DNA from: Blastomussa wellsi
Lineage: Eukaryota > Cnidaria > Anthozoa > Scleractinia > Plerogyridae
DNA length: 64,000 nucleotides
NCBI GenBank assembly: GCA_947652115.1
Contig: OX393562.1
Coordinates: 22,978,923 to 23,042,922 of the forward strand
Direction: 5' to 3'
Position 1 is the first letter of the stretch. Every line of letters begins with the position of its first letter. This document shows, piece after piece, positions 6,227 to 52,957 of this stretch. The notes under the pieces were generated by a model that saw only the letters and a list, made by a program, of their open reading frames with translations, was not told where the DNA came from and did no database searches. The translations under genes were made by a program, and so were the position numbers.

Positions 6227-9200
6227 CTAGCCACGATTGGCTGGGCCATTTGAATGCTGCGTGGAGTGGCGTTCCCTTTCAGGAACATTCGACCTTGACG
6301 TTTCCACATTAACATGCACCGATGGTTTATCATCTGCGGGTTCAGAAAATAAGCTCTCTGGGCTGGGTAAGGCTGGAGCCGGCGAAGGGTTACGAATCGG
6401 CATGGGAACAACGGGTGGAAGCATAGGGGCTAACTGAGGTGGAGCTTGTGGAAACTCTGGTGCTGTCTCATGTAATGTCGGAGGTTCTCCCATTGGTGAT
6501 TCTGCCATTGGTGGTACTGCCATAGGTGGTGCTAATGGAAGTATTGGAAACATTCGCGGAGCTAGAAGTAGTGGATTTCCCTGAGGAAGTGGTGCAGCTG
6601 GTACAGGAAAGTTTGGGAAGAAGGCCCGATTGATGGAGGGCAGAGGGAAAACAGCTGGGCCAGTGGAAGGAAGGTCTGATAGAGGAATGTTGGTTGAATC
6701 TTCTCTTTCTAGCGAATCTAGGGATCCACCTATACCAGTAGGTGGACGAAACAAAGGTGCAGCGCCCACTCCAGTTTCCTGTGCCAATGGGGCAGTTGTC
6801 TCTGTTGGGCTGTCTTGTATTATAGCTGGTGCACCTAAATCAGAAGGAAGCCTGCCTTCGAAAGGGTTGGCTGCCGCTTTAAGCGGCAGAGCTCCAACAC
6901 CAGTGGGACTATCGAGGCGTATTCCGCCGAGCTTTGGTCTCTTTCTTCCACCTGCTCCACCTGCAACAAGGTTTGCGATCGGATCTGTAAAGACTTCAAC
7001 GGGCTTGTTTGGGTTGTTTCCTAAACCAAACAAATTTTCTTCACGTGCTTTCTTCAAGGGTCCTGTTACAAACTTTGGACCGCGCCTTCTTTCAATAACT
7101 CCACCTCCAAGAAGATCAAACTGCCTTTTGAATTTCTTTGTTTCTTGGCCTTTTCCAGCAACCAGTTGAGAACGTGGTGGTTTGCTTGCCAAGGTGTTAC
7201 CATGGAGCGTTCTTGTTGGGTTTGGCACGTGTGATTTAGCGGTTTGTACATTTATGCTCACGCGAGGACGTTGAAGTGTACCAAGTGGGCTAACAGATGA
7301 TTCTTGAGATTGAACTGGTGACACAGAAGCCTGTTGGTTGTTCTCAGGTACCACAGTTTGGGCCAGATATGGCGCTGGAGGCTCTTGATCGTCTGCTTGT
7401 AACAAGGAGGCCTGAGGAAGATTCACTGGTGTCAGTTGGGCACTGGTATCCTGCTGAAATGCTTGAACGGGCTGTACTGTAGCCTCTTGTTGTTGTTGTG
7501 GTTCAGCGATACTTTGCAGCGGCTGAGCAGGCACAAATTGCTGCTCCTGCTGACCTCCCAGATAACTGTAAAGCTGACGTTTCCATGAGCGCTTGTCTTT
7601 TCTACCATTTTGAATGTGGTTTTCTATTGTGCTGTGCGCTTTCATGGGCTGTGGCAAAGTTGACCTACCGTTTTCCTTAGGAGCTTTACCAGGTACTGTT
7701 GTTTGGCCTAGTGAGCTAAGAAGAGGAACGGTGCCAAACAATTGCCTTTTCGATTTTCTTTCTCGTGTCTGTTCCTTGTGATGACCCAAAGTCTTTACAC
7801 GATCTTTACTTGTCGATATCAGAGACTTTGCTGTTTGAACACTGATGCTTACTTTTGGTCTTGTGTTGTCCTCCGTAGTATGAGTAAGTGGTAGCAAAAC
7901 TGGATGAAATGGTTGAATCTGCTGCTGCTGTTGGTTTTCAGTTGATTGTAGAAATGCAACTGGCTGCATAACAGGTTGTTGTTGTTGCTGCTCTTGTTGT
8001 TGTTCAGGTGCTTCTGATTGAGACTGTGGTAGCATCGCAACCTGCTGGACACCCTGTTCGTTATGGTCCTGATTTTCAACCGCCATGAATTGATTATTTT
8101 GATCCAAACTACTTTGAATTTTATTTAATCCTCCATAAATTGGAACCGGATATTGCCTCTTTACTGGATTTCTAATCTTTTCAGTGCCTGTGACATGGTG
8201 TTTCTTTTTAGCTACATCTACCTTAACAGATACGCGAGGTCTCTGGTCTTGAAGCAGATCTCCGTCGTTAACGGCAGTTTCTTGATCATTCTCTTCGGGC
8301 TCATAATCTTCAGGTTCTTGTTCAGCTTGATAAAGTTGTCTTTTCTCGTCGTTCTCAGCGTCCATCCTGCGTTTAACTGCAATTTTTTTGGTCGTGCTTT
8401 CTTTCCTTTTACCCTTTGATCTTTTTGATGCTTCAACGTGAACAGAAACACGTGGACGTTGATAATCCGCCTCGTTTAAGCTAGTCTGAGAAGGAACTGC
8501 ATCTGAAGACAGTTCAACTTCTTGTTGCTGTTGAAGTACAGTGGGATTTGAATGCAAAGCTGTAGACAGTGACTGATCTTGCTGAGGTTCCTCTTGCACT
8601 TCGATAGGAGATTGTGTGAGAGCACTATTCGCTTGTCCATCGGATTGCAATGGTTCTTGATCGTTGCTAGTTGAAATTGTTTCCTGAGACTGTTGAAAAG
8701 GTTGAGCAAGAGGAGGTTGTTGACCGAATACCTGACGTTTATGAATTTCTTTTTGTAAATCTTCTTCATCAGATCGCTTAGATGCCTCAACATCGACAGA
8801 AATATGTGGAGTGCGCGCTGTGCTAGGCAAATATCCAATTGCTTGACCTTGACTGGCTGGAGGGAAAGGTAGACCTTCATGCGGTAGTTCCGATAGGCCA
8901 TAAATTTGTCTTCTATCTTTTTTGGCCGGTTCGTTATTTAGATCATTTTGCCCAAGGAGCTTATTCTTCTTTTTGGAAGTTTCTACATGGACTGACACAC
9001 GGGGCCGCTGGTGAGTTAAAGGGATCTGAGAAGATAGAGGTGCACTGACAACCGGAAAGTGGATCATGTGCGGAAGCTGTTCCATTCCATAAACCTGTCT
9101 TTTCGATTTTGAATTTCCTCTTCTGTCAACTTTTTCATCAAACTTTAAACCTTTTAACTGTGAACGTCCGTGATGTCTTCTTCGTGGGAATTCAGACTTT

Positions 9201-12200
9201 CTCTTGTTCACCTCCACGTTAACTGAAACATGGGGTCTTGGATGTACATTTAATTGGGTAGGTACGGGATACTGCTGAACGGCTAACGGCGATTGTGGTA
9301 TTGCGTAGAATTCCCTTTTCTTTGCGTTTTCCCTTTGTTTCCTTTGGCCCTCGCCCATTTCCGATGATTGACTTCTTAGACTTGCCTGCTTCTTGCTACC
9401 CGTTTTGCTTTTAGACCTTTTTGGAATTTTGTGTTTTCGGTTTCGCTGTAGCTCTTCTAATAGCATGCCATTGGCCTTAATTTTATGATTGATTGGTATG
9501 GTGTTAAACGCGGGCATCAAAATACCGTTCTGTTTAAACGTCTGCGGGAGAACTTGCATAGCTGGAAATCTTGTTAACAGTGAGATGCCCTGGCGCTTGT
9601 TCTGGTCGTTTTCCACAGCTGATTTTTTGGCAGTTTGTACGTTGATAGACACACGGGGTTTGTTGCGTATTGGTACCTGAGAACCACTATTGTAAGGAAT
9701 GGGAATTTCATAAGCAGGGGTTAAACGTTGTGTTGAAGCTACAAACTGTCGTTTATGGAGTGTGTTTTTGTTCTTCTTGGACGTTTTCTTTGGAACAGTT
9801 GATTTTGCAGCGACATTAACATTAATGGACGTATGTTTAGGTTGCTCCTCTTCAGTTTGTGTTGCTGGCTGAGGATTTGATTGTTCGGGTATTGGTATAC
9901 TTGAATCTCCTGGTAGTACACTAGGGAGCATACCTTGAAAAGGGACCACAAATGGTGGTTGAAAAGGTGCCTGGAAATCCGACTGAATAGCTTGCTGTAT
10001 TGGTATTTGCATTGGTGCACTGCCTCCACGGAACGCTAGTCGTTGTGCTTGAAATGGTACCGTCATAGCTTCACTTTGAGATGGCATTAAATTCTGAGCT
10101 GAATTTTGTTCCAGCTCTTGCCTCTGTCCGACCATTTCTTGATACTGTCGTTGCTGGGAAACTTCGTCTTGTCCTTGAAGTTGCTCGTTATCATTTGATG
10201 TCATTTCTTCCGGGCTTTGAGCAACAAATTGATTCCCTGGTGCATTTGCGAAATTAGAGCTAGCTTGGTTTGGATTAATTTCCTGGTCATTCTCTCCTCC
10301 GTCTACAAGCTCATCTCTTTTATCACCAGTTTTGCTTTCTTCGCGATGCTTCGTGATATCTCCTTTTGGGGACCTTCTCTCCTTTACTACTGAAGGAATT
10401 CCGTTCTTTTTAGCTGTTTCTACGTTAATGTTAATATGTGGAGAGTTCCGTTGAAACGGGTACCCTGGTACGCCATAATTTACTGCTGTAGGCAAGGCAT
10501 AGTGACTTGTTAGTGGCACACCCGGTAAGTAGTTATATAATTGTCGTTTAAAGATGTGAGCGTGAGAATGACCTTCTTGCTTGTTCTCTGTTTTAGAGGC
10601 TTTGGGGATATGTGATTTTGATGCTTGTACTTCTACGTGGACTTTAGGTTTATGATGGCTATTATATGGAGGATATCCAAAGAAGCTATGATAAAGGGCA
10701 CTCAAATAAGAGGCCCACGGGTTAAACGCCGGTGGCTCACTGCTTTCGTCTTCTGGTAATGTGCTATACAAGCTGTTGACTTGTTGCACAGGATGATGAA
10801 ATAAGTGTAGTGCTTCTGGGTATGTGGTTTGTTCAGGTTCCGATTCGTCAGGATAACGTAGGTATGGCAAAGGTGGAAAATAAAGTGGCGAGTAAGGCGA
10901 GTACGGAAAGATGTTGTGCAATATTCGTGCTCCTTCTAGTCCATGTAATCCTCCTAGGGGAATGCCAGGGGAAAGAGGTGGGAGAGCGGCTAATAGCTGT
11001 CTCTTTGACTTCGGTTCTTTAGATCGCTTTTCAAGTACATGCTCCATATCTGGTATAGTAGACCTTGCCGATTGTACGTTAATATTTACGCGCGGGCGAT
11101 GCTGAAGTTGCGTAGCCATTTGCAGATAATGAAGTGGATCAGGTATGGTATGGTACGCTGGATGGTACTGACTGAATAGATTATAAATAGACGGAGGTGC
11201 GGCAGCGTGTATTACTCCTAAATCACCAAGGCTCGGTTGCTGAATCAACACTCGAGGCATTGCAGCGGGACTTTGTTGCTGATATAATGGCAAAATTTGC
11301 CTCTTATCGAGTTTCTTGACCGGTATAGAGGATTTCGTAGTTTCAACGTGAACGCGTACGTCTGGCGAGTCTTCTTTTGGAGTTGTTGGCAAAAATTGTT
11401 GTAAGGATAATGGAAAAGTCGACCTTGCAGTTCCAAGTCCCGCCAGTTCTTGAATGTCTTGCAAACTAGACACGAAACCAGGCAAATGTGGTGTACTAAT
11501 CCCATCGGAGTGTGGCAGTTCTTCTGAGTCCTCTACAGCTTGGTTCTGGAAAGCAGGCGGCTCAAGTGCATTGTAAACTGAGGGTAAAGAATTTCGGTAA
11601 ACATTTTCAGCTGTTTCAGGTACAATTATTTGTCTCTTGGTAATATCATAACCCGATTCATCCGAACGCTTGGCAACTTCAATTTGGCGATTTGAGGCCT
11701 TCCCCGGTATAGTAGACAGCTTTTCTTTCTGTTCAACTGATTTATGCAGCTCTTGAATGTTATTTATTGGCGAAACAGGTCCATAAAGTGAATGTGAACC
11801 CATAAGCTGCCTTTTGCCTAGTCTGTGATGGCGAATGGTGGATCTCAACGTCTTTTTCTGTGTTTGATCAGTGATGGTGGTTTCAGTGTTTTCTTTGTTG
11901 GTTGTGGGCGTTTTTGAGATAGTTGATTTTGCTATTTTAGCTTTTAATGGTTTCTGAACGTGTCTTTGTTTGCCAGTATGTTCTATTTTTGATCGATGAA
12001 AGTGATGAAATTCCAGTTCATCTCCATGTACGACATGGTTTGGAATTCCCACATAACTCATGCTATGTGTGACTGTCGAGCCTTGAGGCAAGAATCTGGC
12101 GGCAGGACGTACAACAAATGAGTCGTGAGAATGTAAAATGGGTTGGTTGACTGTGGGAGGTGGCTGATGGAACACAACAGGTGGCTGATGATACACAACA

Positions 12201-15200
12201 GCTGGTCGATGTACAACTACGGGTGGTTGGTGATAGATTATCGGTGGACGATGGAGTACTATTGGTGCTCTGTGAACAACTATGTCTGGTCGATGATAAA
12301 TTTCAGGTGGTGGGTGGTAAATGATGGGAGGTCGGCTAACAACTATGTCATTTTTCTTTGAAGCTTTCTCATCGTTTTCTCTTTGAGGGTGTAAAGTTTC
12401 TCCTTTAGTGCTCTCTATTTTGTTTTTCTTTTCAGACTTTTTGTGATGTTGTTCCGAATTAGCTTTATGCTTAAGCACATGCGATTTTCCAAATGCAGGA
12501 CTGTATCCATAGTTCAACCCTCCATGAAAGAATTGTGGAGCTCCTACGTACGTGCCAGTATGTTGCATGTGACTCGCATAAGGAACAAAGCCTGTATGGG
12601 ACATGTAGCTTTCTTGCGCATGAAAAATAGGTTGCCTCACCATAGGGGCAGGCTGATGAAACACTACTGGTGGTTGCCTATATATAACTGGTGGACGGTG
12701 AACCAATACTGAAGGTTGATGATATACGACAGAGGGCTGGTGAATTACTATATCAGGACGATGCATAATAACATCTGGCTTGTGATACACTTCAGTGGGT
12801 GGGTGATATATGAGCGTAGGCCTTCTCATTATCACTAGATTCTTTTTACCCCCTTCGCTATTCTGGTGCCCTTTTGTGTGAAGTCGACTTCTCGTTCCTT
12901 TTTTGGATTCTCCTGAGCGTCTATGTCTCTCTCTTTTTCGCAATGGACGATGGGATCGTCTGCTATGTTCTCGCTTTTTGTGATTTTCGTGGATCTTGCT
13001 GGAAACTTCAGGTTTTTCAACATGCTTCTGAACAAGAGACTTGCTGAATGCTAAAGGATGTGGACCACGCATAACTCTCCGGCTCTCCGGCTCCGGCGCA
13101 AAGTATTTAGTTCTGTAAGATTGATATGGAAACCATGGACCTCTGAAGCCAGTCCAGCTATTCCAACCACTTTGCTGGGCTAAGGTGTTGTCTGGTAAAC
13201 TGTAATCATATCTCCATCTTCCAGCATAGTAATGCGGTGCGCCAACGTAGGTGTTGGCGTGACTGATATGAGAGGCATACGGCACAAAGTGGGGATGACT
13301 ATGATACAAATCATGGGCGGTGTACATTGGCTGGCGAACCATAGGCGCAGGTTGATGAAACACTACTGGAGGCGGATTATAGATTATTGGGGGACGATGA
13401 ACAACCACTGACGATTGGTGATATACTACCGATGGTTGATGAATAACGAAATCAGGACGGTGGACAATGATGCTAGGCCTGTCGTAGATTTCTGGAGGGG
13501 GATGATAAATCAATGCTGGACGTTGTATAATTACCATGTTCTTTTTATGACCTTTTTTGTGATGCTTTTTATCCTCCTTTTGTGGGTGTAATGGGACAGC
13601 TTTCATCTCTGTCCTTTCGTTTAGGTCTTTGCTGTGTTCTCTTTTCTTAATTCCACCGAAGATATATTTTAACGTTTTCGCCTTTTGATCTGTTTCAGCT
13701 TCCTTTGTATCCCTTCTCGTTTTATTTCGTGAAAATCCGTCTGATCGCTTGCTTAGAGTGGCATTTTTTCCTTTTATAGTAGTTCCTAACTTTTCTTTCT
13801 TTGATCCTTTTTCTACTTTGGATTTATCAAACGCATGTCCCATAAAATGTCCAAAACCATGAGTTGGACCCCAATGGCTTGGGAAAAAGTGCGGTGCCCC
13901 TACATAAGAACCAGCGTGTGTTAAATGAGACAAATACGGCACAAAGTGAGGGTGAGCAAAGTACGTCTCATGCGAGTGAAAGATTGGCTGATGAACCATC
14001 GGAGAAGGTTGATGGAAAACAACTGGTGGCTGATGATAAATTACCGGTGGCCTATGTACAACGACAGATGGTTGATGAAAAACTACCGATGGCCTGTGAA
14101 TGACAAGGTCCGGTCTGTGTACAATGATGTCTGGTTTGTGATATATTTCTGGCGGCGGGTGATAAATTAGTGGTGGACGTTGCATCACCACTAAATTCTT
14201 CTTGTGTCCTTTGTTTGCATCTTTTTTGCTTTCAGACGTATCGTTATTACTTTTAAAGTTTTTTGCACTTTGCAGGGTTCTTCTATTTCCCTTTCTGTTC
14301 CCTTTGTCAGTATTACTTTTCCTTTGGTGTTTAGATGCTTTTTCAACAAGTGATTTACCGAAAGCATGATTATAAATACCACCGTAACCGTGGGTTCCCG
14401 ATCCCCAGTCGCCAGGATAAAAGTGTGGTGCACCCACATAGCTCTCTGTGTGGTGAACGTGTGATGAAAAGGGTACAAAATGGGGATGTGCCAGGTACGT
14501 GTCATGCGAATGAAGGATTGGCTGATGAACCATGGGCGAGGGCTGATGGAAGACAACGGGAGGCTGGTGGTAAATTACAGCAGGTCTATGAACCACTACT
14601 GAAGGCTGATGGAAGACTATTGAAGGTCTGTGTATAACGATATCCGGTCTATGCATAATAATGTCTGGTTTGTGATAAACTTCTGGTGGCGGATGATAGA
14701 TTAGAGGAGGTCTACGCATTATTACAAGATTCTTTTTGTTTCCCGTGTTGGTTGCATTTGTTTCGTTCTTCTCTCGGATTGCATCTTCCATGTCGTTCTC
14801 TTCCTTCTCTAAGGTTCTCCTATTATCTTTCAGGACTTGTTTGCTTTTTTGTACGTGCGTTCTTTGTTTCTTGTGAGATTTTTCTACTTCTGATTTGCCA
14901 AAGGCATGGTCAAAAGCATCCCTGTCTCCTCCCCATCCCCATCCGTTGCCATTGAAGTGAGGAGCACCCACATCATGTCCGCCATTGTAGACAAGTGATG
15001 AGTAGGGTTTTAAGTATGGGTGAGCAACATAACTGTCATGTGCTTGTAGAATTGGCTGTCTTACCATAGGGGACGGCTGATGGAACACCACGGGTGGTTG
15101 CTGATAAATCACTGATGGTCTGTGAACCACCACGGATGGTTGGTGATAAACAACGGAAGGTCTGTGAATAACAATGTCGGGCCTATGCATTATAATGTTG

Positions 15201-18200
15201 GGTTTATGGTACACCTCTGGTGATGGGTGATAGATTAGAGGCGGACGTTGAATAACGACGTGGTTTTTCTTTTTGCTCTTTTCATCTGACTTGGCTTTCA
15301 CTTTCTTGTCTTTCCTTCCTTGGTCGTCTTTTGCTGCTCGTCTAACTTTATCTTTGTGTTCTGACCTTAAGCTACCATTTTTTGAGGACTTATCATTCTT
15401 TTTTGGTACATTTGATTTACCGTAGGCTGGTCCGAACGAGTGTGGTTGGCTCCAGCCATAGTTCCAGCCACCTGGGTAATAATGCGGACTTCCAACATAG
15501 GTAGATGTGTGTTGTATCTGGGATGAATAGGGTACCGGCACAGGATGAGCGACGTAGGTATCGTGGGCATGCATTATTGGCTGATGAACTAAAGGCGAGG
15601 GTTGATGGAACACTACTGGAGGCTGTTGATATATAATAGGCGGCCTGTGAACAACAACGGAAGGTTGATGATACACAATCGAAGGACGGTGTATGACAAC
15701 GTCTGGTCGATGAACAATAACATCTGGCCTGTCATATATCTCTGGTGGTGGATGGTAAATCATCGGCGGTCTCGCTACGACAACTTTGTTCTTTTTATGT
15801 CCTATAGACTTCTCCGAAGACCTTTGATGTATTTCCCTTTCCCTTTCTGTATCACGTGTTGACCTTGGATGCGTTTTGTCTGTACTGTGACTTTCCTTTT
15901 CATTCTTGCTTGCGTCCCCCTTACTTATAGTTTTGCTGTTGACCTTTTCGACAGCTGATTTGCCAAAAGCATGATCCACATAACCACCAAATAGCGGCTG
16001 GTGGAAAAAGTGCGGAGCTCCTACGTATGATGCTGAATGATGAACCTGCGAGGTATAAGGCATTGGGACGGGATGCGCAAGATAAGTGTCATGCGCATGC
16101 ATGATTGGTTGGTGTATCATTGGTGGAGGCTGGTGAAATACAATCGGCGGTTGGTGATAAATTATTGCAGGCCTGTGAATAACAACTGAAGGCTGATGAT
16201 ACACTACCGAAGGTCTATGCACGACAATATCTGGACGGTGTACTATAACATCAGGGCGATCATAGATCTCCGGTGGTGGGTGGTATATCATCGGAGGTCT
16301 GTGAACAACAACAAGGTTCTTTCTGTCCCCTTTATTGGTTCTTGGTTTTTCTTTAGACACATTTGCTGCGCTATTTGTATCTTTATGATCTCCTCCGCTG
16401 TGTTTTTGTTTTATTGATATCTCTGGACTCTCGTTTTCTATTGTTGACCTTCCAATACCATAGCTCATTGGGTGAAAAAAGTGGCCATGCGCTACATGAT
16501 ACACGGGTGTTGGTTGGTGGAGTACTATAGGAGGTCTGTGTATAATCACAGGAGGTCTGTGTACTACAACAGGAGCTCGATGTATGAGGATTGGTGGGCG
16601 ACGGAAAACCATCGGAGGTTGATGCATAACAACGGTTGGCTTGTCAAATATGTCGGGTGGCGGATGATACACTATCGGCGGCTGATGAACTACAAGGTCT
16701 ACGTTCTGCTTCTTTGAACCCTTGTTCTCTCTCTTTGCTTCTGGGGTACTAATGGTTTCTCGTTTTTTGTCGGCCTTTGCTTTCAGGTCTTCACTTTTTC
16801 TCTCAGAATCACTTATGCTCCTCGATTTTGGGGCGTTTATCTCAGTATCAGTTCGCTCAATACCAGACTTTCCATATGCTTGGCGTGGGACAACAGGCCC
16901 AAAATAGTTCCCAGCAGGGTGCACATATGATGATGACGTAGGTACCATTATGTGCTGAAGTTGAGGTGTCATAATTTCACGAGAGTGAATTATTGGCGAG
17001 TGTATTATTGGCGGAGGATTGTGGAAGACGACGGGGGGCTGGTGATATATTATCGAAGGATGGTGAACTATTGTCGGTGGCTGTTGAAACATTATCGCTG
17101 GCCTATGATAAACTATTGGAGGAAAGTGCATCATTATATCCGGCCGACGGTAAACTTGTGGCGGTGGGTGATAAATTAATGGAGGGCGATGTATGATGAC
17201 GACGTGTTTACGATGTCCTCGGTGAGCAAAGGAGCTGATTGGTCGTAGATGATAGAAGCGTTTATTTCCACGATGGTGATGGCCATGCCGATAATGGCGA
17301 TGATGGTGGTGATGGTGATGGAAGTGGCGTTTGCTTAATTCTGTTGACCTCCTTTTACGCGTGTTATTGTCCTTTTTTGACGTTGAATCGTCACTGTGTA
17401 TCTCATGGTCTTTCTTTTTAGTCTTCTTGCTTTTACTATTTTCTACCTGTGACCTTCCAAAAGCCGGTCCATTCGACGAGTAGCCATACGTTGGCGATGG
17501 TGTGTATCCTGCGTAACCAGAGTAACCATTATTTGCTGTGTAACCGTATTGAGGTGTCTGCGTGAAGGGTACGTGTGCCGATAGGCCCCATCCGTAATCA
17601 TTATGCCCAGGGTAGAAATGAGGTGCCCCTACGTACGTTTCAGAGTGCGCAATATGACTCACGTGCGGACGGAACATAGCATGTGCAGCATAAGTGTCAT
17701 GGGCATGGTACACTGGTTGCGAAACCATTGGCGCTGGTTGATGAAATACAACTGGAGGTTGTTGATAAACCACCGGTGCTCTGTGAACGACCACAGATGG
17801 TTGGTGGTAAACAATTGAAGGTCGATGTATCACAATATCTGGTCTGTGAACAATGATATCTGGTCGGTCATAAATTTCAGGTGGTGGATGATAAATCATG
17901 GGAGGTCGTGCAACGATAACTTTATTCTTTCTCTCACCTTTAGTGTGCTTGCTTATCTGCTCTGTTGGTTTGACATTCTTTTCCGTGCCACTATGACGCT
18001 TTTGTTGAATTTTAGTCTTTTCACTGTTGATTTTAGCATGCTTATCGTTCTTTGGTTTCACAACTTCAGTTCTTCTTTCCCAGCCGTTTGTGTTTAATGC
18101 AGGAAATACGTGCCCTGTTGAACCGTGAGGAATGGAGCCAGGGAAATTAGTTACTCCACCGTGTGGTAAACCTACGTAGTGGCCAGCGTCGTTTACAACA

Positions 18201-21200
18201 GAACCCATATGGGAGGCAAAAGCCATTGGATGAACAACAAAACTGTCATGTGAGAACAGCAATGGTTGATTGACTGCTGGAGCAGGCTGGTGAAATACAA
18301 TTGGTGGTTGATGGTAAACAACAGCTGGCCTATGCACAACAACGGGAGGCTGATGGTAGACAATGGGTGGCCTGTGAATAAGAATAGGAGCCCTGTGTAC
18401 AACAATGTCTGGTCTGTGGTATACCTCTGGTGGTGGATGGTAAATAATCGGAGGACGGTTGACGACTACATCTTTCTTCTTTTTATGGGCATCTTTCCTC
18501 TTTCTTTTACGGTTAGCTTCCTTGGAGTCTTTCTTGGACATCTTGTCTGCAACAGAGCGTTTTGGCTTGTTAGAACTTTTGCCTTTGGCATCCGTGACAG
18601 TAGAGTCAGAGTGTGGTGTTTTCTTATTGTCGTGCTCAGTTGTGTTTTCTTCGAGTCGTGCGACGGTGGATTTCCCAAAGCCACAACCAGGACAGTGCAT
18701 GTGAATCATGTGCATAGGATAATGATGGATCAGATGGGAATGGTGAACTATCATTTGAGGTCCTTTGTGTATAACAATTGGCGGTCGATGGAAGAGAATC
18801 GGGTGGTGGTGAATAATATATGGGCGACGATGAATGATTATAGCTGGCCGATGAAACACTAATGGTGGTCGATGGACTATAATGGGCGGCCTGTGTATAA
18901 GAACTGGTTGACGATGAATTATAATTGGGGGACGGTGCACTAATATTGGTGGTCTGTGGAAGATGATTGGATGGCGGTGTACTATTATATCTGGCCTGTG
19001 AACAACTATGGAAGGTCGATGAATCATATGGCTTGGTGGATGATACAATATCGGTGGCCTGCGAATTATAAGAAGTGTCTTTTTGGTGCTATTGGTGTTT
19101 TTGTCTGCGTTTTCGTCAGGTGTAGAGATGTTTTCAGTTTCTTCACTACTACGTTTATACATTTCATATGGTTTCTCACCTTCAAAGGATGTCCACGGAT
19201 CTGCTAACTCTCGATGTATCCTCGCACTAGCGCCCACTGTAACGGCTTCTGTCCGTGATTTTATGTAAGGGCCGTCAATGGATCGTTGAATTCTAGCTGC
19301 AGCACCAACAGCTTTCTCTGGAACCTCATTGTATCGTTGATTATTCAAGTGGAAGTCACTGTAATAAGTGCTAGCCACTTGGTCTCCAAACCGTGGAAGT
19401 AAATCTGTAAGGCCTCTTTGAATTCTTGTACCCGCCCCAACAGGCTTCCTGTTCTCTTCCAAACCCCATTGTTTACCTGCCAATAAATCGGTCAATGCTC
19501 GCGCAATTCTTTTTCCCGCTCCACTGCGTTGCTTCGGATCATCTGCACCTTTGGTTTTAGGACTGTTTGCTTGATCGTTAGGTTGGTTAAAATCTGTCGC
19601 TGTCTTTGTTTCTTTATCCCCAGTTTGTTTGTGATCTCTAATGCCGTCTATATTGTTTCTGCGGGTGCCTGTTATGGGGACGTGTGATTTTCCGAAAGCT
19701 CCGGTACCTATACCATGCATAAATATTTCTTCATGAGGAACGCCCTTGTATGTAGCCACGTGTCGTACGTGTGATGCATAGGGAACGACAACAGGCTTTG
19801 TCACCCAGGTATCATGAGAATGTAAAACTGGCTGATGGACCATTGGTGGTGGCTGGTGGAAGACGATTGGTGGTTGATGGTACACAATAGCTGGACGATG
19901 AACCACCACTGGCGGTTGATGATAGATAATAGGAGCACGATAGAGTACTATAGGAGCACGGTGCACCACGATGTCGGGCCGATGGTAAATTTCTGGTGGT
20001 GGATGGTAGATGATTGGTGGCCTATGTATAACTACAGAGTTCTTCTTATTCGCCTTTTCTGTAATTTCCTTTGCCTTGTGGTAGAAAATTTTATGCTTCA
20101 AAGGTGAACCATGGTTCTTGTGCAGCTTTATCCCAGTTTCTGTTTTGTCTTTGCTTCTTGTGAGGGCAATATGCTTTCGTCTAGTATGGCGAGGCGTTTT
20201 ACTGCTTTTTTCAGTTTTTAACTTTTTGTCCCTTTTTATGCTTTTTACAGTGGCCCTTGGTTCTCCCTTCTCTTCTTCCATATCTTCCTTTTTAGGCACC
20301 TTAGATTTTCCATAAGCCATGTAGTGAATTCCTCCATGTCCGTGGAAGTATGAGTGTGGAATATGATAGAAGTGCCCCGCATGATGCATTCGGGAGCCGT
20401 ATAGTCTTGTTACTGGTCTGCTCACATATGTGTCATGTGACCTGAATACTTGTTGGTGTATGACTGGCGGAGGCTGATGAAAAATAATCGCTGGCTGGTG
20501 GTACACAATTGCAGGTCGATGCACAATCACAGGTGGTTGGTGGTAGATTATTGGAGCTCGATGGATAACAATGGGGGCACGATGAACCACTATCTCTGGT
20601 CTGTGGTAGATTTCAGGTGGCGGGTGATAAACAAGCGGGGGCCGACGCACAATAACTGCATTTTTCTTTCCTCCTTTTTGACTCCCGGTCTTTTTGGTTT
20701 TCAGTTTCGAGGCAATGTTGTGCTTTGTATCTTTTATGGTAGAATCTGTGTCTGATTTTGTTGAATTGTTCTCGCCAGTTATCTTATTTCTTTCGGATGC
20801 TTTTTCGACAAATGATTTGGCCTGTTTTAATATATGTGACTTGTAAAACGAATTCCCATGCCCTCCAAAGTGATGAACAGTATAGGCATCTGGAACACCA
20901 ACGTAGGTGTGATGATGCATTACTCTAGCAGAATAGGGTACCACCACAGGGTGAGAAATCCAGGTGTCGTGAGACTTCAAAACTGGTTGATGAACCATGG
21001 GTGGAGGTTGATGAAATATCAAGGGTGGCTGGTGATACACTATAGCAGGGCGATGAACAACAACGGGAGGTTGGTGATAAAATATGGGTGCACGATGAAT
21101 CATAATTGGAGGGCGATGAACAACAATAATAGGGCGATGATAAATTTCAGGAGGTGGATGATATATTATTGGCGGCCGGCTGACAACAACAGTGTTCTTC

Positions 21201-24200
21201 TTCCCAGCTTTTTCACTGGACTCGTTTTTTGCTTTGTGGTCATGGTTTTCAAGAGATTCTCGCTTTGAAGCTGTTTCTGTCGAATTATCATTGTTTGTTG
21301 CGTTCTCTGTTGAAGGCGCGTTTTCTATCTTCGATCTTTTACCTATTGGAGGTCCTCTTCCAAATAGTGGATTTCCGTAGTTTGTGATAACATTTGGAAC
21401 TCCCACGTAGTGTCCAAAGTCCCGTACAACAGAGCCATGATGTGTAGCATAAAAGGAAGGATGGACAGTAAAAGAATCATGAGAATACAGCAACGGCTGA
21501 CTGACAGCAGGTGGCGGTTGATGGAAAACAATTGGCGGTTGATGATACACCACGGCTGGGCGATGAACAATTACTGGAGGTTGATGATAGATAATAGGTG
21601 GTCTGTGGATCACAAGTGGAGGGCGGTGAACAACTATGTCTGGTCGGTGGTAAATCTCTGGCGGAGGGTGATAGATTATGGGGGGACGGTTGACAACTAC
21701 ATCTTTCTTCTTCTTCTTTTGTATTCCTTCCTTCGAATCCTGAACCTCCTCTTTTTCGCTCTCCCGTTTGACTTTTAAATTCACGCCGTTGAATTCTGTA
21801 ATAGTGTCTCTCTTATCAACTGCACCGCCATTCAAATTTCTGAAGGTTAACTTTTCATTGCTACCTTCGGTTGAGGTCATGAAATCCCATTCATCGTCAA
21901 TTGCTCTTTTTCTCAATCCCTTAGGTTTCCATAAAGAAGTAAAATAAGCCATGTAATCACCAAAACTGTCGCGTTTTGTTTTCTTCTTATTGGCTATTGC
22001 GTGTGTAATGTTTTTAGTCTTTGTAGAGTTGCCGTGTGGTACTCTCTCTTTCCTGTACGAGCAGTGTGCTCCATGGCATCCCTCCCCATAATCACCAGCA
22101 TACACATGCGATGGAATTCCGTAGTACGTCTTCGCATGAGAAACCATGGATGCTGTATGATACACCATTGGCTTTGTCACCCAGGTGTCGTGGGAATGCA
22201 AGATTGGCTGGTGGACTACTGGGGGAGGTTGGTGGAACACTATTGGTGGCTGATGGTAGATTATTGCTGGTCTGTGAACAACAATAGGAGGCTGATGGTA
22301 AATTATGGGTGGTCGATGTAACATAATGGGTGCTCGATGAACGACGATATCAGGCCGGTGGTAAATTTCTGGTGGCGGATGGTAAATGATTGGTGGGCGA
22401 TGCATTACAATTGCATTCTTACGATTTCCTTTTACGTCTTTAGCGTGCTGTGCGTGTAGATGTGATACAACATGCTTTCTTTTCATTTTCTCGTCAGTTT
22501 TCTTTGTTTCTAATTTCCCAGAAGATTTTGCGTTTCTGCGATATTGATGTCGTTCGTGTGCTTTTGACGTAAACACATTAAGTCTGTGATACCGCTTCAG
22601 AGTTTTCTCCCAGCTTTTAACATTTACTTTTCCCTTGTCTGTCCTTTCCATGCTGTGCTTCTTTTCGAAGTTTGCATTTGTGTGGTTCTTTGTGGGATCC
22701 CTCTTTTGATCATGTAAATGTTCTTTGGTTGCACTTTTATTCTTTTTGCTTTTACTTGACAAAATTGCAGTTTTCTTGTAAGCCATCCTAGGTACCTCAG
22801 ACGATGGATTTACATTCCTGGAACCTAGCGCTCTGGCTGCTCCAGAAACAACCCCACCATTTCCAATACCTTCCATACCACCGCTAATTTCTCCTGGAAG
22901 GCCTTCCATGTTTCCCATTTGGCCTGGAGAACTAAGTCCCATTGCACCCATGCCGTTCATGGCGTTTATTCCACTCATCCCATTAAATGCATTTATATTA
23001 TTCATTTCATTTCCTCCATTGAAGTTTGAAAAACCGTTGATTCCGTTCATTGCAAAGTTCGCTGCATTGATTCCTCCAAGTAAGCCAGGTGGAGGATTTC
23101 CAACGACGTTTATGGGTGCGGGCATTGGGGTTATTACGTTCTGGCGTTGGGTAAATGGCATTCCTCCCCCAAAAGGTAACTGCGGTATTGTTCCTTCTTC
23201 GGGTGTCATACCCATCTGTGGCGATTCCATGCCGTTCATTATCGGAATGTTATTGTAAAACTGTCGCCTAAAAGGCCCATTCATGTGCCTGAAACGCCTT
23301 TTGTGACGTCTCCGGCCATGATATTTTGGATAATTGTCTGGCTCTTCCATCTGGGATCTTTCGTATAAATAAGAATCGTGAAAATGATGTCGATGACGGT
23401 GAGGGTACCAGTAACCCAAGTGGCGGCGATAAAAGGGTGCTTCGTCGTATAAGCTATCAAAACCACGTCTTTCCGGAAAAGAACGATATGGATGGAAACT
23501 ATTACCACGGTGAAAATGACTGTATGATCTTCGCATGCCAGGATACCAGTGGTGATGCGGATGATACGGTGGATAGCGATAATGGTGGTACAAAGATCGT
23601 TCTTGTGCAGCCGCCGATGGAGAGTGAGAACCCGGGCGTGAAACCACCTGTAAAGAAGCAGGTTTGGCTTTAACTTTCACTCCGGCAGAATTTGCGTTTA
23701 TTTCCAAGTCGGCAGACTTATCATCGACTTGAAAATGGCCCACCTCAGGTCCATTAGACGGTTTTGGTTCCGTATCTCTTTCTGTATAGGAGTCAAGATC
23801 CGATGCTCCACGAGTGGTCACAATTTCTGATCCGCTGTTACCCAAGGCGTCCCGGACGGGTCCAACAGGTGCATTTTGCATTTGAGGCACGGTGTGTATT
23901 GCTGCGTTTTCTTGAGGCGATGACTGAGCTTTAGTTGAACTCACTGCATTGTTTTCTAAAGGAGCTGCGGTGTTTTGATCTTTTGAAGTAGTTGTTGTGA
24001 CTGGTGTTTCAACTTTAGCTGTTGTGATTTTAGTTTCATTGGCATTTACCTGTTTGTTGACGTTGTTTGTTATTGTCGATTGAGCGTCCTGTGAACGTGC
24101 TTTAACATCAGAGATAGGCAAATTAGATTGGCTATTTTGCAATGGTGCAGAAGACCCGGTAATCTTTACTGCGTTCTTGTCACTGGGAATGTTTCCAAGC

Positions 24201-28848: not shown

Positions 28849-30561
28849 ATGGGACTAAATCGCCCTTTTCTATTAGTATTTCTAGTCATAGCAAGTCTTC
28901 TCGTTCTTCATGGTAAGCCGCTAGCACAAGATAATGACGAAAAAGAACGACTGAAAAGAGAAGAACCCGAAGAAGATGCGCCAGAGTCTTCAGACGAAGA
29001 ACCAGTGGAAAAGGAAGACGATAAACCAGCGGGAGATAATCAAAACGAGCCCGCAGAGGAAGACAGAGCAAACCAGGACGATGAAAATTCCGTTGAAAAA
29101 ACTTCTGAAGACAGTACTTCGAGCGAGGTAGCCGACGAGGCGACCGAAAGCAGAAAACAGCAAAAACAAAAAAGCTCTAAGAGGTGGTTCAACCCCGGTC
29201 AATTTGGATTTGGAGGATTGGGGTATCCCGGCTGGGGTGGACTTCATGGATTAGGTTTTGGAGGTTTGTATCCAGGCGGAGTCGCGCCTGGTTATGGATA
29301 TGGCGTCGGAGCAGGTCTTGGTTGGCCTGGTTATTGGTACAAGTCCGCTATCCCAAAAGGCAAAAAACCCCAAAGCTCGTCAAAAAAGTTCGGGGTTGAA
29401 CATCCTTGGGGGTATGGCCTTGGGTATTCTGGTGGCTATGGCCCTTGGGGCGGCTCCTACGGTGTTGGACTCGGACCGTATGGTTATGGTTTGGGAGGTT
29501 TTCCAGGCTATGGGTTTATACCAAACCCGGGATTGTTTCCTACTCCTTTTTTCCGTTCTGGTGTTCCAACAAAATCCAATAAGAAGGCCGCAAACAGGAG
29601 AGAAACTGTAGCGAAGAGGTTTTATAGCTATGGCCACTTTGGTGTTCCCGCTGGATATGGATATCCCGGATGGGCTAACTACGGACATCCTGGGTTCGGC
29701 TTTGGTGCTCCTATTTTCGGTGGTTATAGCCCTTTTATAGGCTACGGGCCTTTTGGTTCCTGCTTCTATAGGTCCAATATTCCTAAAGATAAGACGGACA
29801 GTGGTAAAACCAAGCGCGACACAACTGGCAAAGCGAAGAAGAAATGCTGTGGTGGTTTTGGAGGCTGTGGTGGACTTGGAGGTTGTGGTGGATTTGGAGA
29901 TTGTGGTGGACTTGGAGGTTGTGGTGGATTTGGAGATTGTGGTAGATTTGGAGGTTATGGTGGATTTGGGGGTTGGGGTGGATTAGGACTTGGTGGATTA
30001 GGAGTACTCGGACATGGACTAGGATATGGAGGATTTGGCCGCGGTGGGTGGGGCTGGGGCGGATTCGGTTATCCTCCCTACGGTGGTTGTGGTTTCGGAG
30101 GCTTCGGTGGATGGGGCCCAGGCTGTGGATTCTTCAGATCAAAAATTTCTGACAAGGATAAAGCATCGCAATCCGAGACAAAACCAAAACGGGAAGTAGA
30201 TGACGACAAACTAGCGGAAGAAAATCAAACAACAGAAGGCACAGAATCAAAGGACGACAAAAAAGGAAAGAATGGCTGCGGTTGTGCACCACCATCCTCA
30301 GACAACCCTGAAAACAACAAGGTTGAAAAAAGATGTTGTTGTGGGGGCACTGGATATCTAGGACTACCTTTCTTTGGAGGGTATGGCGGACTTGGAGGAT
30401 ATGGAGGATATGGAGGATATGGAGGATATGGAGGGTACGGACTAGGATATGGCTACGGGTATCCTTTCCTCGGCGGCCTGGGATGTGGCGGCTTGGGATA
30501 TGGTTTGGGTTACGCTAATGGCTTCGGTGGCTGCGGTTTCCCCTGTGGAGATGATGTCGAG
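28849..30561 (+). CDS. Gly/Tyr-rich secreted precursor, exon 1 (gene spans 28849-37563)
   Basis: The ATG at 28849 starts a clear signal peptide (MGLNRPFLLVFLVIASLLVL, cut near HGKPLA). An upstream in-frame ATG at 28669 gives no signal sequence and lies in probable 5' UTR. An acidic Glu/Asp-rich pro-region to about residue 100 follows, then Gly/Tyr/Phe-rich domains each closed by a short signature: WYKSAIPKG, FFRSGVPTK, FYRSNIPKD, FFRSKISDK, with dibasic linkers (VAKR, KTKR, VEKR). The third domain is a GGCGG/GGFGG array and the last begins KRCCCGG. A donor GTCGAG/GTAAGG ends the exon in phase 0 at codon 571; reading on would add only 11 residues to a stop. I join it to the exon at 34088 (phase 0). 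Four exons give about 1,276 aa. A separate shorter gene ending at 30597 remains possible. Confidence 0.8.
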
Positions 30562-30997
30562 GTAAGGCATGAGACTAATAAGGGTTTCTTTGTATAGTTA
30601 AGCTCAGTAAGCATGTTGGTTCCCATTTGTTATTCTTTCGACATGACTAAAATTTAGCTACCTTTATATATAGCATTGCTTAACTGTAGCGTTACCGTTT
30701 AGCGCCAAATTTAGCGAGCCTAGTCACGTGGTGCGGTAATACCCATTCGGTGTAAAATGAAACTTAGTCTTAAAAATATTGTCTACTATTTTCCCTTGGA
30801 GTTTTGATAACACATAAGCCTTCGTCTGATTTATGACAACAGAGTTTGAATGAGTTTATATTGAATCATGTCCAGCTTTCTTATGTCGAAACCAAAAGAT
30901 GACCAAAGAAAGTAGAATCAAGTTCGGTGCTTGAACACGGCTAAATGTGCAGTTCATTTTCCAAGACAAATAAAGTGAAAAATATAAAACAACTAAA

Positions 30998-31475
30998 TAC
31001 GACTGAAACCCGCATCTTTATTTTACTATAGCCTTGAGTTAAACATGTTTTAAATTATATTGGCTAAGTTATTGGTCACTATAAATTAAACGAATGTTCA
31101 CAGTCAATCATTATTCTATCTTGTGTTTTACAAATTACCGAAACAAAAGATTCATGTGTATTTGTTTCATTGGACATGGCGTCATCTTTGCCAGTTATCT
31201 GTTCCCTTTTAACATACAAAGAGTTGCGACTGAATACAAAATGATACGACTAAAACCCGCATCTTTATTTTACTATAGCCTTGAGTTAAACATGTTTTAA
31301 ATTATATTGGCTAAGTTATTGGGCACTATAAATTAAACGAATGTTCGCAGTCAATCATTATTCTACCTTGTGTTTTACAAATTACCGAAACAAAAGGTTC
31401 ATATGTATTTGTTTCATTGGATAGGGCGTCATCTTTGCCAGCTATCTGTCCCTTTTAACATACAAAGAGTTGCGA
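30998..31475 (+). repeat. Tandem duplication, period 247 bp
   Basis: Two near-identical copies, 30998-31229 and 31245-31475, both running from TACGACT through CCCGCATCTTTATTTTAC to GAGTTGCGA. They differ by only a few bases, so the duplication is recent. A diverged third fragment (CAAATTACCGAAACAAAAGA and flanks) is at about 31617-31690. Confidence 0.85.
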
Positions 31476-32685: not shown

Positions 32686-32727
<42 letters not shown>

Positions 32728-34087: not shown

Positions 34088-35600
34088 GTTCTTGAACCAT
34101 GTGGATGTGGCTACACCTCAATGGCTGGTCCTTACGGCTCTACTTCTTGTTGCGGAAAGTCAAAGATTTCAGGAGAAAAGAAGGATGCACCAAAAGAAAA
34201 GAGGAACACCGAAGACGAAAAGAAGCAAGAATCCAAGCGATGTGGGTGTGGCGGCAGCTGCGGCTTTGAAGGCTGTCTCGGGTGTGGTGGATGTGGTGGA
34301 TGTGGCGGATGTGGCGGATATGGCGGATGTGGTGGATGTGGCGGATGTGGTGGATGTGGCGGATGTGGGCACGGAGGATGGGGTGGTCATGGAGACTGGT
34401 TTGGTGACGTTGGACACAGTGACTGGTTTGGTGGATTTGGACACCACGGAGGATACGGAGGGTATGGGCATGGAGGATGGGGAGGATATGGTCATGGATG
34501 TGGTTGCGGTGGATGTGGCGGATACGGTGGATGCGGCGGATGTGGCGGTTGCGGTGGATGTGGCGGTTGCGGTGGATGTGGCGGTTGCGGTGGATGCGGT
34601 GGATGTGGCGGTTGTGGAATTTTCCGATCTAAGCTGGCCAAAAATGACAAAGAGCAGCCGGAAAAGCAATCTAAAGAGGGCCCTCAGCCTAACCAAGATG
34701 ACAAATCTTTACCTACTGCAGGTAAGAAGGAGGAAAAGGCAAGTAAACGATGGGGACCTTGGGGTGGTTGTGGAGGATGCGGAGGATTCGGCGATCTGGG
34801 TGGATTCGGAGGCTGTGGAGGACTTGGTGATTGGAACTGGGGTGGTGGATGTGGTGGTCCTTTTGGAGGTTGGGGTGGCTGGGGTGGTTACGGAGGTTAT
34901 GGTGGTTTCGGAGGTTATGGCGGCTGTGGCTTCGGAGGTTATGGTGGCTGTGGAGGTCCTTGCTTTGGAAGTGGGCCTGCACCCATGGGAGGGGGACCAT
35001 GGACATTTTTCAATGAAGGATGCTGCAAGTCTAACGTGGGTGATAATGCTCATGATGAAAAATCTCCATCCAAAGAGGCTGCACCGTTGTCAGTGAAGCC
35101 AGCTCAGGGACCTGTGCAAGGGGATAAAAACAATGTTGCCGCCGCAGCTGCTGTTCCCGCCGCTGCAAAGCCTGCTCAACCAGCGCCAGCACTTGCACCT
35201 GCCAAAACTGAAGATCAACCAGCAACCCAGGGAAAGGCATCGAAACGCTGCGGAATTGGCTTTGGAGGTTACGGGAATGGCTGTGGATTCGGGTATGGCG
35301 GATTCCCTGGAGGATTTGGTCATGGCGCCTTCGGACTCTTAGGCCATGGATTTGGTTTCCCGGGCTACGGTTATGGCTACGGCCTGGGATATCCAGCTTA
35401 TGGATATGGATATGGATTTCCATTTTCGTTTGCCCGATCAAAGGTTTCTCAAAAGAGTAAGGACGTTAAGCCGAATACTCGAGGGGAGATCCCGTTTGCA
35501 GTAGATAAATCGGAGAGAAAAAAACAAACTATACATCTGGGATATGGTTATGCCAGCGGCGACAACTACCGTCTTGGATATGGTTTTGGCGGAATGGGAG
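34088..35600 (+). CDS. Gly/Tyr-rich secreted precursor, exon 2 (Gly-Cys arrays)
   Basis: Acceptor TTTTAAGCAG, phase 0, reading VLEPCGCGY. It contains four Gly-rich domains separated by signature-plus-linker blocks: CGKSKISGE, then ...ESKRCGCGG and a long GGC tandem array; IFRSKLAKN, then ...ASKRWGPWGG; CCKSNVGDN, then an Ala/Pro-rich linker and ASKRCGIGFGG; FARSKVSQK. Every domain therefore begins just after a Lys-Arg site and ends in the [KR]S signature. Donor GGGAG/GTAAAG at 35600 leaves phase 1. If the intron is retained, translation stops at 35617 and an AATAAA follows at about 35620, so an alternative short 3' end is possible. The antisense and +1 frames are open only because of the repeat composition. 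Confidence 0.8.
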
Positions 35601-36046
35601 GTAAAGACATCTTGTGAGAATAAATACATCTGGATCGACTAATCAAGCCACAGTAGCAAAAATACTCATACTATATATCAACAAGTTTATTCTTACTTAG
35701 TTATTACCAACCGAGAATGTGATCTCAGTTAGAATATTGAATTATCCTGTTGGTTACTTTTTGCCACGAAAACAGCAATCTAAAAGTTACTTGATGTAAA
35801 ACAAGATATGACGAAGGCAGATAGCTTTTTTTCAGTGGTGTAAATATTTAAATTATGGTAATTACGTATGACCTTTTAGCAAATCAGGGTGCTTTTTATT
35901 TTATCTGCATTAAGAAAATCTCTGATATCCTCTTTGATTAGATTTCAATCGAGACTTTGGTGCATAATTATAAGACGATATACAGGAATTTCAAATAGCA
36001 CGGCGAAATCGCATTTTTGGTAATCGTTGTTTTTTTCCTGTTTCAG

Positions 36047-36535
36047 GTTTAGCAGGCTATCACGGAGTTGGTGGCGTTACTGGAACCTCCGTTTATCGAT
36101 CCAAAATCCCGAAGGGAAACGTAAAGGGATTCAAAAGGTGGGGCTGGGGACATGGTGGGTATGGACATGGATTTGGTCGTGGACACGGAGGTTGGGGATA
36201 CGCCGCACCTTACGGCCACCCTATCACACATCCCGGATTTACAAGTATTGGATTTCCTGGTCATGCCATGGCAACATTCGACGTTAAAAATAGCATAGCG
36301 CAGAAGCGTGGAAAACAAAAGCGACAACTAATTCCAATGGGTGCGGTTGGTCCAGGTCCATTGGCTCTTCCCGCCTCCATCCCTGCCGCACTTCCAGCTG
36401 CCGTTACGCCCCTGGCTCTTCCTGCCACGTACCATGCACCATTGTATGCACCAGTCGCGCACCAAGTCGCTGCTGTTCCATCATACGCCGCTATTCCCGC
36501 AGCTGGTGGCGTGCCCGCAGCGCTGCCCGTTGGCT
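36047..36535 (+). CDS. Gly/Tyr-rich secreted precursor, exon 3
   Basis: Acceptor TTTCCTGTTTCAG, phase 1. Encodes LAGYHGVGGVTGTS, the signature VYRSKIPKG, FKRWGWGHGG and a His/Gly-rich domain, then DVKNSIAQK, a KQKRQLIPMG cleavage site and an Ala/Pro-rich hydrophobic tail. The KRQL site and DVKNSIAQ closely resemble the Lys-Arg-Gln and VETAKSTIP units of the giant minus-strand protein, linking the two genes. Donor GTTGGCT/GTGAGT, phase 1. The exon is easy to overlook because its true frame starts without a Met. Confidence 0.7.
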
Positions 36536-37447
36536 GTGAGTAGATTTCTGCGGTTATTATTATCGAATTGACGGAATATTTCACTCGAATTGCGATTTTT
36601 GTAGGTTTATAAACACAGTTTGTGAAAGTAACCGAGCGGATAATATCATTCCCAACTTTTAACTGTTTAATTTCACACATGTGATATGAAAGATAGTACA
36701 TTTTATGCATCTCCTCTCAACTAACTACTCCCTCTCCCCTCTTAACAACAAAAAGGAATGATTGATGCAATTCCTTTACTATGTGTAAACCTGTGCCTCA
36801 CGAAAAATCTTTTGAGCATACTATTTTGTTCGATAAGGTGGGGCCAAAAAGATTCGATAAAGCCCGCACCTACCTCGACCTACCTCGGAATTTCATTTAT
36901 TATCCTTGATGACAATGTTTTGCAGTTCGATGCAACTATATATTGTTTTTTATTTGCTTGTTATCATTTGCAAATGTTATAATTTTTTAAACAGCACGGC
37001 CCCTCCTCCTGTCCCCACTCCCCCTGCCAAAGTAATCGCTGCAACTGAAACACTCAAAAGTAGATAATGGTAATGGATTTGTATGGCGCATTTTCCATAT
37101 ACATGTTCAAATGCGGAGGTCAGCGTGTAAAGGCGCCTACGGCAGCCGCTATCAGTCCATTCATGATCTCACCCCACCCACCCAACCCATGAGAACATAT
37201 GCAAACAGACCAGACCACAGAACCAAGAACTCTGTGTCCTACTCTTTACGATTAGTGTGTGGGTTCTTTAACATCCCCAGCTGACCCGTAACATTGAAGA
37301 TACAGGACACGCAACCTACGGTTTTATCGTCCTTATCCGAGAAGACTAGAACATCTAACCATTTGCAGACGTAGTTACAAAGTTACATGTTATTTCAGTT
37401 ATTTTAAGTTACACGCCTACATTTGGTGTTTGTGTTTGCATTTTTAG
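36536..37447 (+). other. Intron 3 of the Gly-rich precursor gene
   Basis: Begins GTGAGT and ends TGCATTTTTAG. No coding potential or recognisable repeat was seen. Confidence 0.55.
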
Positions 37448-37563
37448 TACACTTTGGTGGACCAGCCTTCGGTGGACTTGCCCTAGGCCGCTCAAATATG
37501 CCACAGGGACAACCTTTTTCACCCTTCGGTAATATCAAGAGATCAGAAATGCCGAACGAATGA
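37448..37563 (+). CDS. Gly/Tyr-rich secreted precursor, terminal exon 4
   Basis: Acceptor GCATTTTTAG, phase 1, giving HFGGPAFGGLALGRSNMPQG, then PFGNIKRSEMPNE and TGA. The signature LGRSNMPQG and the IKRSE dibasic site repeat the plan of the earlier exons, which supports joining this short exon to the gene. The first AATAAA downstream (37709) lies inside a MITE at 37703-37923, so the element may supply the polyadenylation signal. Confidence 0.7.
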
Positions 37564-52777: not shown

Positions 52778-52957
52778 CTAATTTACAGGTATTCCACAAA
52801 CACAGTAAAATTAAGAGTTAAAAATCTAAATATGGAACATACTATAATTAAAATTAAATAAAAAAGCGTCATAGGGTATAAGCGAAATAAGCGGCTGGGT
52901 ACATCGAGTTTCGACTGTAGTTAAGATGTACTCGTACCTTCTCCGTTAAATACCTAC

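Follow-up and report, generated by a model that had tools for sequence, protein, structure and literature searches.

Why should two neighbouring genes whose products are unrelated in sequence close their repeated domains with the same few residues? The question is raised by a 64,000-nucleotide stretch of the genome of the scleractinian Blastomussa wellsi, here called the window (C2:22978923-23042922 of a genome of 367.8 Mb in 124 contigs, with intron-split genes of animal type), in which a giant protein with His-Pro modules is encoded on the minus strand and a Gly-rich protein on the plus strand. We found that both proteins carry a tag, [KR]-S-x-[IV], far more often than their shuffled sequences do, that the tag stands where a weakly charged domain passes into a charged linker and that it is kept in relatives. 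A typical unit consists of a dibasic site, a structural domain, the tag and a charged linker with further dibasic sites, and the domains arranged in this way are of several kinds: His-Pro heptads, Gly/Tyr/Cys domains, Gln/Pro domains with a VxVxVET strand and Gly/His-rich domains. Tentatively, we read the tag as a handle that would be retained on the mature domain.

Two unrelated precursors share one end-tag

Both genes and their tags lie where a first-pass annotation of the window had placed them, the giant as an open frame on the minus strand and the Gly-rich gene as four exons on the plus strand. The open frame of the giant spans 6227-25054 and was recorded as 6307 amino acids; its likely ATG, at 24997, was inferred by eye from the start of the homolog P0001. 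The protein (Pro 10.8%, His 7.3%, Gly 5.3%) opens with a signal-peptide-like start, followed by a long charged part, 18 His-Pro heptad blocks and Gln/Pro-rich units bounded by Lys-Arg (KR).

6227..24997, minus strand: giant multi-unit precursor, 6256 amino acids, single open frame
11963..22432, minus strand: His-Pro modules, many ending in A-[FY]-G-K-S-x-[VI]-[EP]-K
20294..20308, minus strand: tag YG-KSKVP after a His-Pro module (KSKVP in P0002, KSKVL in P0001)
15404..15418, minus strand: tag YG-KSNVP after a His-Pro module
14342..14356, minus strand: tag FG-KSLVE, the Glu form, after a His-Pro module
6227..11887, minus strand: C-terminal Gln/Pro-rich units, KR-bounded, many ending in a strand of the approximate form RPxVxVxVETAKSxVP
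10604..10618, minus strand: tag AS-KSHIP in a C-terminal unit
7223..7237, minus strand: tag TA-KSHVP in a C-terminal unit

A tag lies ahead of the next module in 15 of the 17 His-Pro modules. Fifteen of the 17 anchored modules were aligned, omitting the first (residue 880, with the diverged end RKERVP) and a short one at residue 2785 (tag RSTIE); the tag Ser was present in 14 of them and Ile or Val also in 14. The length before the tag varies widely among modules and the tag stays. Among the C-terminal pieces, 11 of 17 carry it by hand count if Phe or Leu is allowed at the last position. The match of Chorion_3 (Chorion family 3, Pfam PF05387) to a His-Pro module was borderline (22.6 bits for a cut-off of 22, over only 51 residues) and is probably an effect of composition; solved structures compared with a His-Pro profile gave no match at E-values up to 0.1.

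The Gly-rich gene consists of four GT-AG-bordered exons that join in frame to encode 1276 amino acids (27.9% Gly). Its domains are bounded by KR, and the acidic propeptide ends in SSKR ahead of WFNPGQ. We counted 11 tags, corresponding to the ten clear copies and one diverged copy reported at first. A 247-base tandem repeat (30997-31475, plus strand, 1.9 copies) lies in the first intron.

28849..30561, plus strand: exon 1, with a signal-peptide-like start, the acidic propeptide and the first domains (orthologs P0037-P0039)
29341..29355, plus strand: tag WY-KSAIP (WYK-S-x-[IV]-P in three orthologs)
29554..29568, plus strand: tag FF-RSGVP (RSGVP identical in three orthologs)
29770..29784, plus strand: tag FY-RSNIP (FYKSKI in three orthologs)
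30136..30150, plus strand: tag FF-RSKIS (FYKS[KQ]I in three orthologs)
34088..35600, plus strand: exon 2
34157..34171, plus strand: tag CG-KSKIS
34625..34639, plus strand: tag IF-RSKLA
35027..35041, plus strand: tag CC-KSNVG
35435..35449, plus strand: tag FA-RSKVS
36047..36535, plus strand: exon 3
36097..36111, plus strand: tag VY-RSKIP
37448..37563, plus strand: exon 4, stop included
37489..37503, plus strand: tag LG-RSNMP
37540..37554, plus strand: terminal tag-like IK-RSEMP

That the tag sits on sequence-unrelated domains, as first proposed, was borne out: the two proteins show no significant similarity (best E-value 1.7), and in four of their five weak alignments a tag of one protein faces a tag of the other. 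The initial formula, [KR]-S-x-[IVL]-P between Lys-Arg boundaries, held in part. Its core is sound, with Leu and Met less common at the last position, while the Pro is optional, being present in 10 of the 33 tags of the giant and in 6 of the 11 of the Gly-rich protein (the latter a hand count); in the 15 aligned His-Pro modules the residue after Ile/Val is Glu in nine and Pro in three. Lys-Arg boundaries delimit the Gly-rich domains and the C-terminal units of the giant, but ahead of the 17 His-Pro modules stands [KR]K, in most cases with Asn after it, and not KR.

The tag exceeds chance and is a property of the locus

The predicted excess over chance, for which a profile search had been envisaged, was examined by motif counts and found in both proteins. 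The giant contains 33 [KR]Sx[IVLM] motifs (mean of 500 shuffles 12.4, maximum 23) and 10 [KR]Sx[IVL]P motifs (mean 1.2, maximum 5), and the 11 tags of the Gly-rich protein compare with a mean of 0.58 and a maximum of 5 in 5000 shuffles. We also counted motifs in 40 homologs, 36 relatives of the giant and 4 of the Gly-rich protein, which are mutually related, so that their counts are not independent tests. Results showed 158 [KR]Sx[IV] where 36.1 were expected and 68 tags with Pro where 3.8 were expected. Altered motifs stayed closer to expectation: 15 with Thr for Ser (22.7 expected), 48 of the form [KR]S[IV], one residue shorter (35.6 expected), 35 of the form [KR]Sxx[IV], one residue longer (38.1 expected) and 38 of the reversed form [IV]xS[KR] (36.5 expected). 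Val was commoner than Ile: among the 78 tags of 12 chosen homologs, 44 had Val and 34 had Ile.

To see how far the tag extends, we compared the 276 reading frames with 100 or more amino acids in the window and its flanks (200 kilobases (kb) upstream and 60 kb downstream, with N runs in both). The stretch from -16 to +111 kb held 70 [KR]Sx[IV] motifs where 28.4 were expected, whereas outside it the count was close to chance, 32 with 28.7 expected. With Pro, as [KR]Sx[IVL]P, the motif occurred 24 times in 28,860 amino acids inside and twice in 24,304 outside. Two outside frames exceeded their own shuffles, one of them retroelement-like (4 against 0.54) and the other with 3 against 0.33. The tag is a property of a locus of about 127 kb, with four further tag-bearing frames in the flanking DNA:

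upstream, about -15.9 to -14.7 kb, minus strand: tag-bearing frame
upstream, about -13.4 to -12.2 kb, minus strand: tag-bearing frame
upstream, about -7.4 to -5.3 kb, minus strand: tag-bearing frame
about 44.6 kb downstream of the window: P0041, a 697-amino-acid frame that repeats the Gly-rich plan

Tags in the three upstream frames include SRSKVP, HKSDIP, GRSTIP and ARSAIP, and two of these frames have in common with the giant a stretch containing GVKV-x-AKP-xxx-QV. The frame L029:2641-4668 (minus strand) combines octad repeats (VHIGPHVPAVHI...) with tags and this same stretch. P0041 carries HKSHIS, YRSKVP, TRSSVK, FRSSVP, FKSSIP and HRSKVP, together with the variants RNEIP and RSKAP. Pfam gave no match for the four flanking frames; P0041 had no second match in the genome at an E-value of 0.001, and neither did exon 1 of the Gly-rich gene have any other.

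These counts bear on the idea that the tag is a compositional accident of Lys/Ser/Pro-rich linkers. Linkers rich in Lys and Ser do supply background matches, as the 12.4 expected in the giant illustrates. Yet the shuffle, spacing and Thr controls reject a chance origin, and the near-expected count outside the locus, the border position and the ortholog conservation described below point the same way, so that an accident is scarcely credible.

Tags mark the border between domain and linker

In the giant, the charged fraction was 0.15 in the 20 amino acids before the tags and 0.38 in the 20 after them, rising at 28 of the 33 tags; in the Gly-rich protein it went from 0.01 to 0.40 and rose at 10 of 10 usable tags. 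None of 5000 random sets of other Lys/Arg positions reached the step found in either protein. At [KR]S without the branched residue there was little or no step (0.30 before and 0.34 after in the giant, n = 60; 0.26 and 0.27 in the Gly-rich protein, n = 6), and in the homologs the step was weaker (0.21 and 0.34 at tags, 0.29 and 0.33 at controls). Dibasic pairs within 40 amino acids of the tags were distributed likewise: in the giant 18 precede and 75 follow, in the Gly-rich protein none precede and 20 follow. At the tags, weakly charged domains give way to linkers that are charged and rich in dibasic sites.

Such a position also suits the main rival explanation, processing at the tag: a protease, trypsin-like or of convertase type, would cut between [KR] and Ser and free the domain, its prime-side determinants being Ser (P1') and Ile/Val (P3'). 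The interchange of Lys and Arg is what a trypsin-like P1 permits. In the wider His-Pro family, moreover, 40 of 80 tags have the form [KR][KR]Sx[IV], compared with a preceding Lys or Arg at 68 of 185 other [KR]S, so a cleavage role fits there; this count weighs against a retained tag. The window itself presents the opposite picture, since Lys or Arg directly precedes 2 of 36 [KR]Sx[IV] but 21 of 76 other [KR]S. The direction is the same in the C-terminal unit type (10 of 53 against 11 of 30), the giant orthologs (2 of 9 against 15 of 41), the Gly-rich orthologs (0 of 16 against 1 of 9) and P0041 (0 of 6 against 1 of 5). Because the window tags avoid a dibasic context and the linkers are full of dibasic sites, convertase-type processing would leave the tag on the domain. 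A constant Ser with a branched residue two positions on would also be a heavy demand on the prime side of a protease. We therefore consider it unlikely that the tag is a plain dibasic cleavage site in this species, and cleavage at the tag in general seems to us an unlikely account, albeit one that deserves serious consideration.

The tag is conserved in relatives

We then asked whether the tag follows its domains across homologs. In the giant and its 36 relatives, 72 of the 92 segments after a His-Pro block carry the tag, where 29.6 were expected from shuffling each segment (segments of fewer than 30 amino acids were skipped); the giant of the window accounts for 16 of 18. Ortholog alignment likewise spoke for the first-pass proposal: P0037, P0038 and P0039, orthologs of the Gly-rich protein, carry a tag at each of the four sites of exon 1. 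The Ser is invariant at these sites, Lys/Arg or Ile/Val swaps occur at three of them and x changes at three of the four. A distant Gly-rich relative, P0040, has tags of its own. A third unit type, rich in Gln and Pro, occurs in P0031-P0034 and P0036; in it an alternating strand leads into the tag, typically as [VI]-N-[IV]-[NV]-[IV]-[EQ]-T-x-K-S-x-[IV]-P, and these units resemble the C-terminal ones of the giant. A protein search with this C-terminal unit type gave five matches among the best 7996 candidates, all already in the homolog set.

Conservation might merely record descent, if the tags all went back to a single ancestral unit end that was duplicated and reflected ancestry, not present function. 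Within a type the units are plainly paralogs, and the stretch containing GVKVxAKPxxxQV is common to three genes of the locus. Against this, the tags are kept although the spacers before them differ greatly in length, and they are kept in orthologs that are 59-67% identical overall, where x has changed and so has much of the linker; the Gly-rich and giant proteins, moreover, lack significant similarity. Ancestry by itself is, in our view, a very unlikely explanation.

A candidate handle for assembly

By eye the N-termini are hydrophobic, and dibasic sites flank the repeated units, as in dibasic-processed precursors; the sequences are best explained if the locus encodes multi-unit precursors for secreted structural material. 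Convertase-type cleavage at the dibasic sites would remove the linkers, and each mature domain would then end in the tag or close behind it. A single enzyme, for example a secretory-pathway kinase or glycosyltransferase, or a single binding partner might then read the Ser together with the branched residue, and this reading would bring chemically unrelated domains into the same assembly. Lys and Arg interchange at orthologous tags, the Ser is constant and the Thr form is not enriched, which places the weight on the Ser. Lys-specific cross-linking is unlikely given the same interchange.

A retained handle centred on the Ser, admitting unrelated domains to one assembly through one modifying enzyme or partner, is the reading that we favour, with somewhat less than even confidence. 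Of the functions offered in the first-pass annotation for a common recognition signal, cleavage appears unlikely in the plain dibasic form in this species, and cross-linking in a Lys-specific form. The enrichment, the unrelated domains, the conservation and the neighbouring genes support the tag itself and, in part, the proposed signal.

Several observations, besides the dibasic tags of the wider His-Pro family, speak against the favoured reading. The tag is absent from 20 of the 92 segments after His-Pro blocks, and 6 of the 36 relatives (P0014, P0018, P0023, P0026, P0028 and P0030) have none in those segments. Two His-Pro modules of the giant have diverged ends, and 4 of its 17 C-terminal pieces keep the preceding strand with the tag lost (SKKKNK, SKRSDE, SKRSKG, AKKKHH). 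Genome-wide, a strict DNA form (aromatic-K/R-S-x-I/V-P-K with a TCN serine), which is insensitive in that only 2 window tags match it, was found 42 times and its reversed control 52 times; there is no excess, so the tag in that form is not a widespread code. AlphaFold2 modelling of the His-Pro module from the 15 aligned paralogs was uninformative, with a mean predicted local distance difference test (pLDDT) score of 49 and almost no secondary structure.

This last result bears equally on the possibility that the role of the tag is purely structural, as an end-cap or a strand for assembly: the last strand of a domain would pair with other domains, and no enzyme would be involved. The C-terminal unit type, with its tag directly after the alternating VxVxVET strand, fits well, and in the other unit types the tag follows an aromatic or Gly-containing domain end. 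The AlphaFold2 model lends no structural support, however, and a pairing strand would not obviously disfavour Thr; we judge an end-strand quite improbable.

The favoured handle has a bolder form, in which a dedicated secretory or extracellular enzyme would recognise [KR]-S-x-[IV] and modify or join at least three unrelated domains of one cluster, the tagged domains setting the composition of a hardened material. We regard this as rather doubtful. If it were true, a logic like that of sorting signals would operate in animals, where the composition of a hardened material would be set by which domains bear the tag. How proteins are selected and assembled in animals' hardened external materials is poorly known, and the tag predicts the form of the mature pieces, points to a residue to inspect by mass spectrometry and offers a bait for its putative reader.

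Other genes of the region

The window also contains a family of short, secreted-looking Cys-rich genes on the minus strand (52872-53348, 54852-55385, 57109-57618 and 61362-61715) with a core of approximately CxWPCMWPCCCxCxPPKFxFxPLKPxPxCHCP; a genome-wide comparison with one member matched exactly four places, its own among them, and all four lie within the window. A Gly/Ala-rich gene at 46589-48940 (minus strand) has a Cys-containing N-terminal part, and its core repeats a 15-base unit about 80 times. About 22 to 42 kb downstream of the window lie L032-L034, small genes whose products have a signal-peptide-like start, a charged pro-part and an end rich in Gly, Cys and Pro, so the cluster of structural proteins reaches past the tag-bearing genes. 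About 192 and 167 kb upstream, L010:7664-8650 and L013:2694-3641 (minus strand) are frames with a tyrosinase domain (Pfam PF00264, 118.6 and 112.5 bits). As hardening enzymes of the cluster products these would fit a quinone-tanned material, which, so far from the cluster, is only a lead. A frame at 839-1693 (plus strand) has an OTU-like cysteine protease domain (Pfam PF02338) and is possibly part of a mobile element. The window yielded no Rfam match at the gathering threshold and no tRNA. A search of the genome for a mitochondrial MutS gene gave 16 partial matches on contigs C4, C5, C10, C19 and C22, each of them millions of bases from the contig start; they carry no weight for taxonomic placement, as the assembly may lack the mitochondrial genome.

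Comparison with known systems

Multi-unit precursors cut at dibasic sites include neuropeptide precursors, nematode polyprotein allergens and profilaggrin, in which tandem units are separated by basic sites or linkers. The precursors of this locus resemble them in having tandem units parted by basic sites; to our knowledge, each of those systems has one unit type and no end-tag common to unrelated unit types. In its Pro form the tag, as S-x-I-P among basic residues, recalls the SxIP motif (S/T-x-I/L-P) of the cytoplasmic microtubule tip proteins that bind EB1. An EB1-type motif was rejected on account of the signal-peptide-like starts, the lack of Thr enrichment, the frequency of Val and the optional Pro. 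The sortase of Gram-positive bacteria, a single enzyme that handles many unrelated secreted proteins by a short C-terminal motif, offers an analogy only, with no sequence relation.

Cnidoin, a nematocyst protein, has a signal peptide, a pro-part ending in Lys-Arg and a repetitive Gly-rich domain, which forms a single central domain between minicollagen Cys-rich domains (PMC4321713). The Gly-rich precursor is similar in that its propeptide ends in Lys-Arg before the first structural domain; unlike the locus precursors, Cnidoin comes with no mention of a multi-unit plan or a unit-end tag in the parts of that paper considered here. No collagen family was found at E-values up to 0.1 in two pieces of the giant and in exons 1-3 of the Gly-rich gene, a comparison that included no dedicated search for minicollagen Cys-rich domains. 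Silk-like proteins, which recur across animals as secreted, Gly-rich, low-complexity and often modular proteins, are a compositional class and not a family (PMC4944945). Their traits are found in the Gly-rich protein and not in the giant, and the portion of that source considered does not mention a tag common to unrelated modules.

Literature searches, mostly of open-access titles and the starts of abstracts, returned no description of an end-tag common to unrelated modules among the matches listed, and no family with the plan that the first-pass annotation had thought undescribed. Matches listed for the His-Pro string HRPPI and for tag strings were unrelated by title, and the parts considered of PMC6626399, PMC5080974, PMC11959691, PMC10243833 and PMC9027906 held nothing matching tagged precursors. 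Taken together, multi-unit secreted structural precursors are known, and the new element of this locus is the end-tag that its unrelated modules share.

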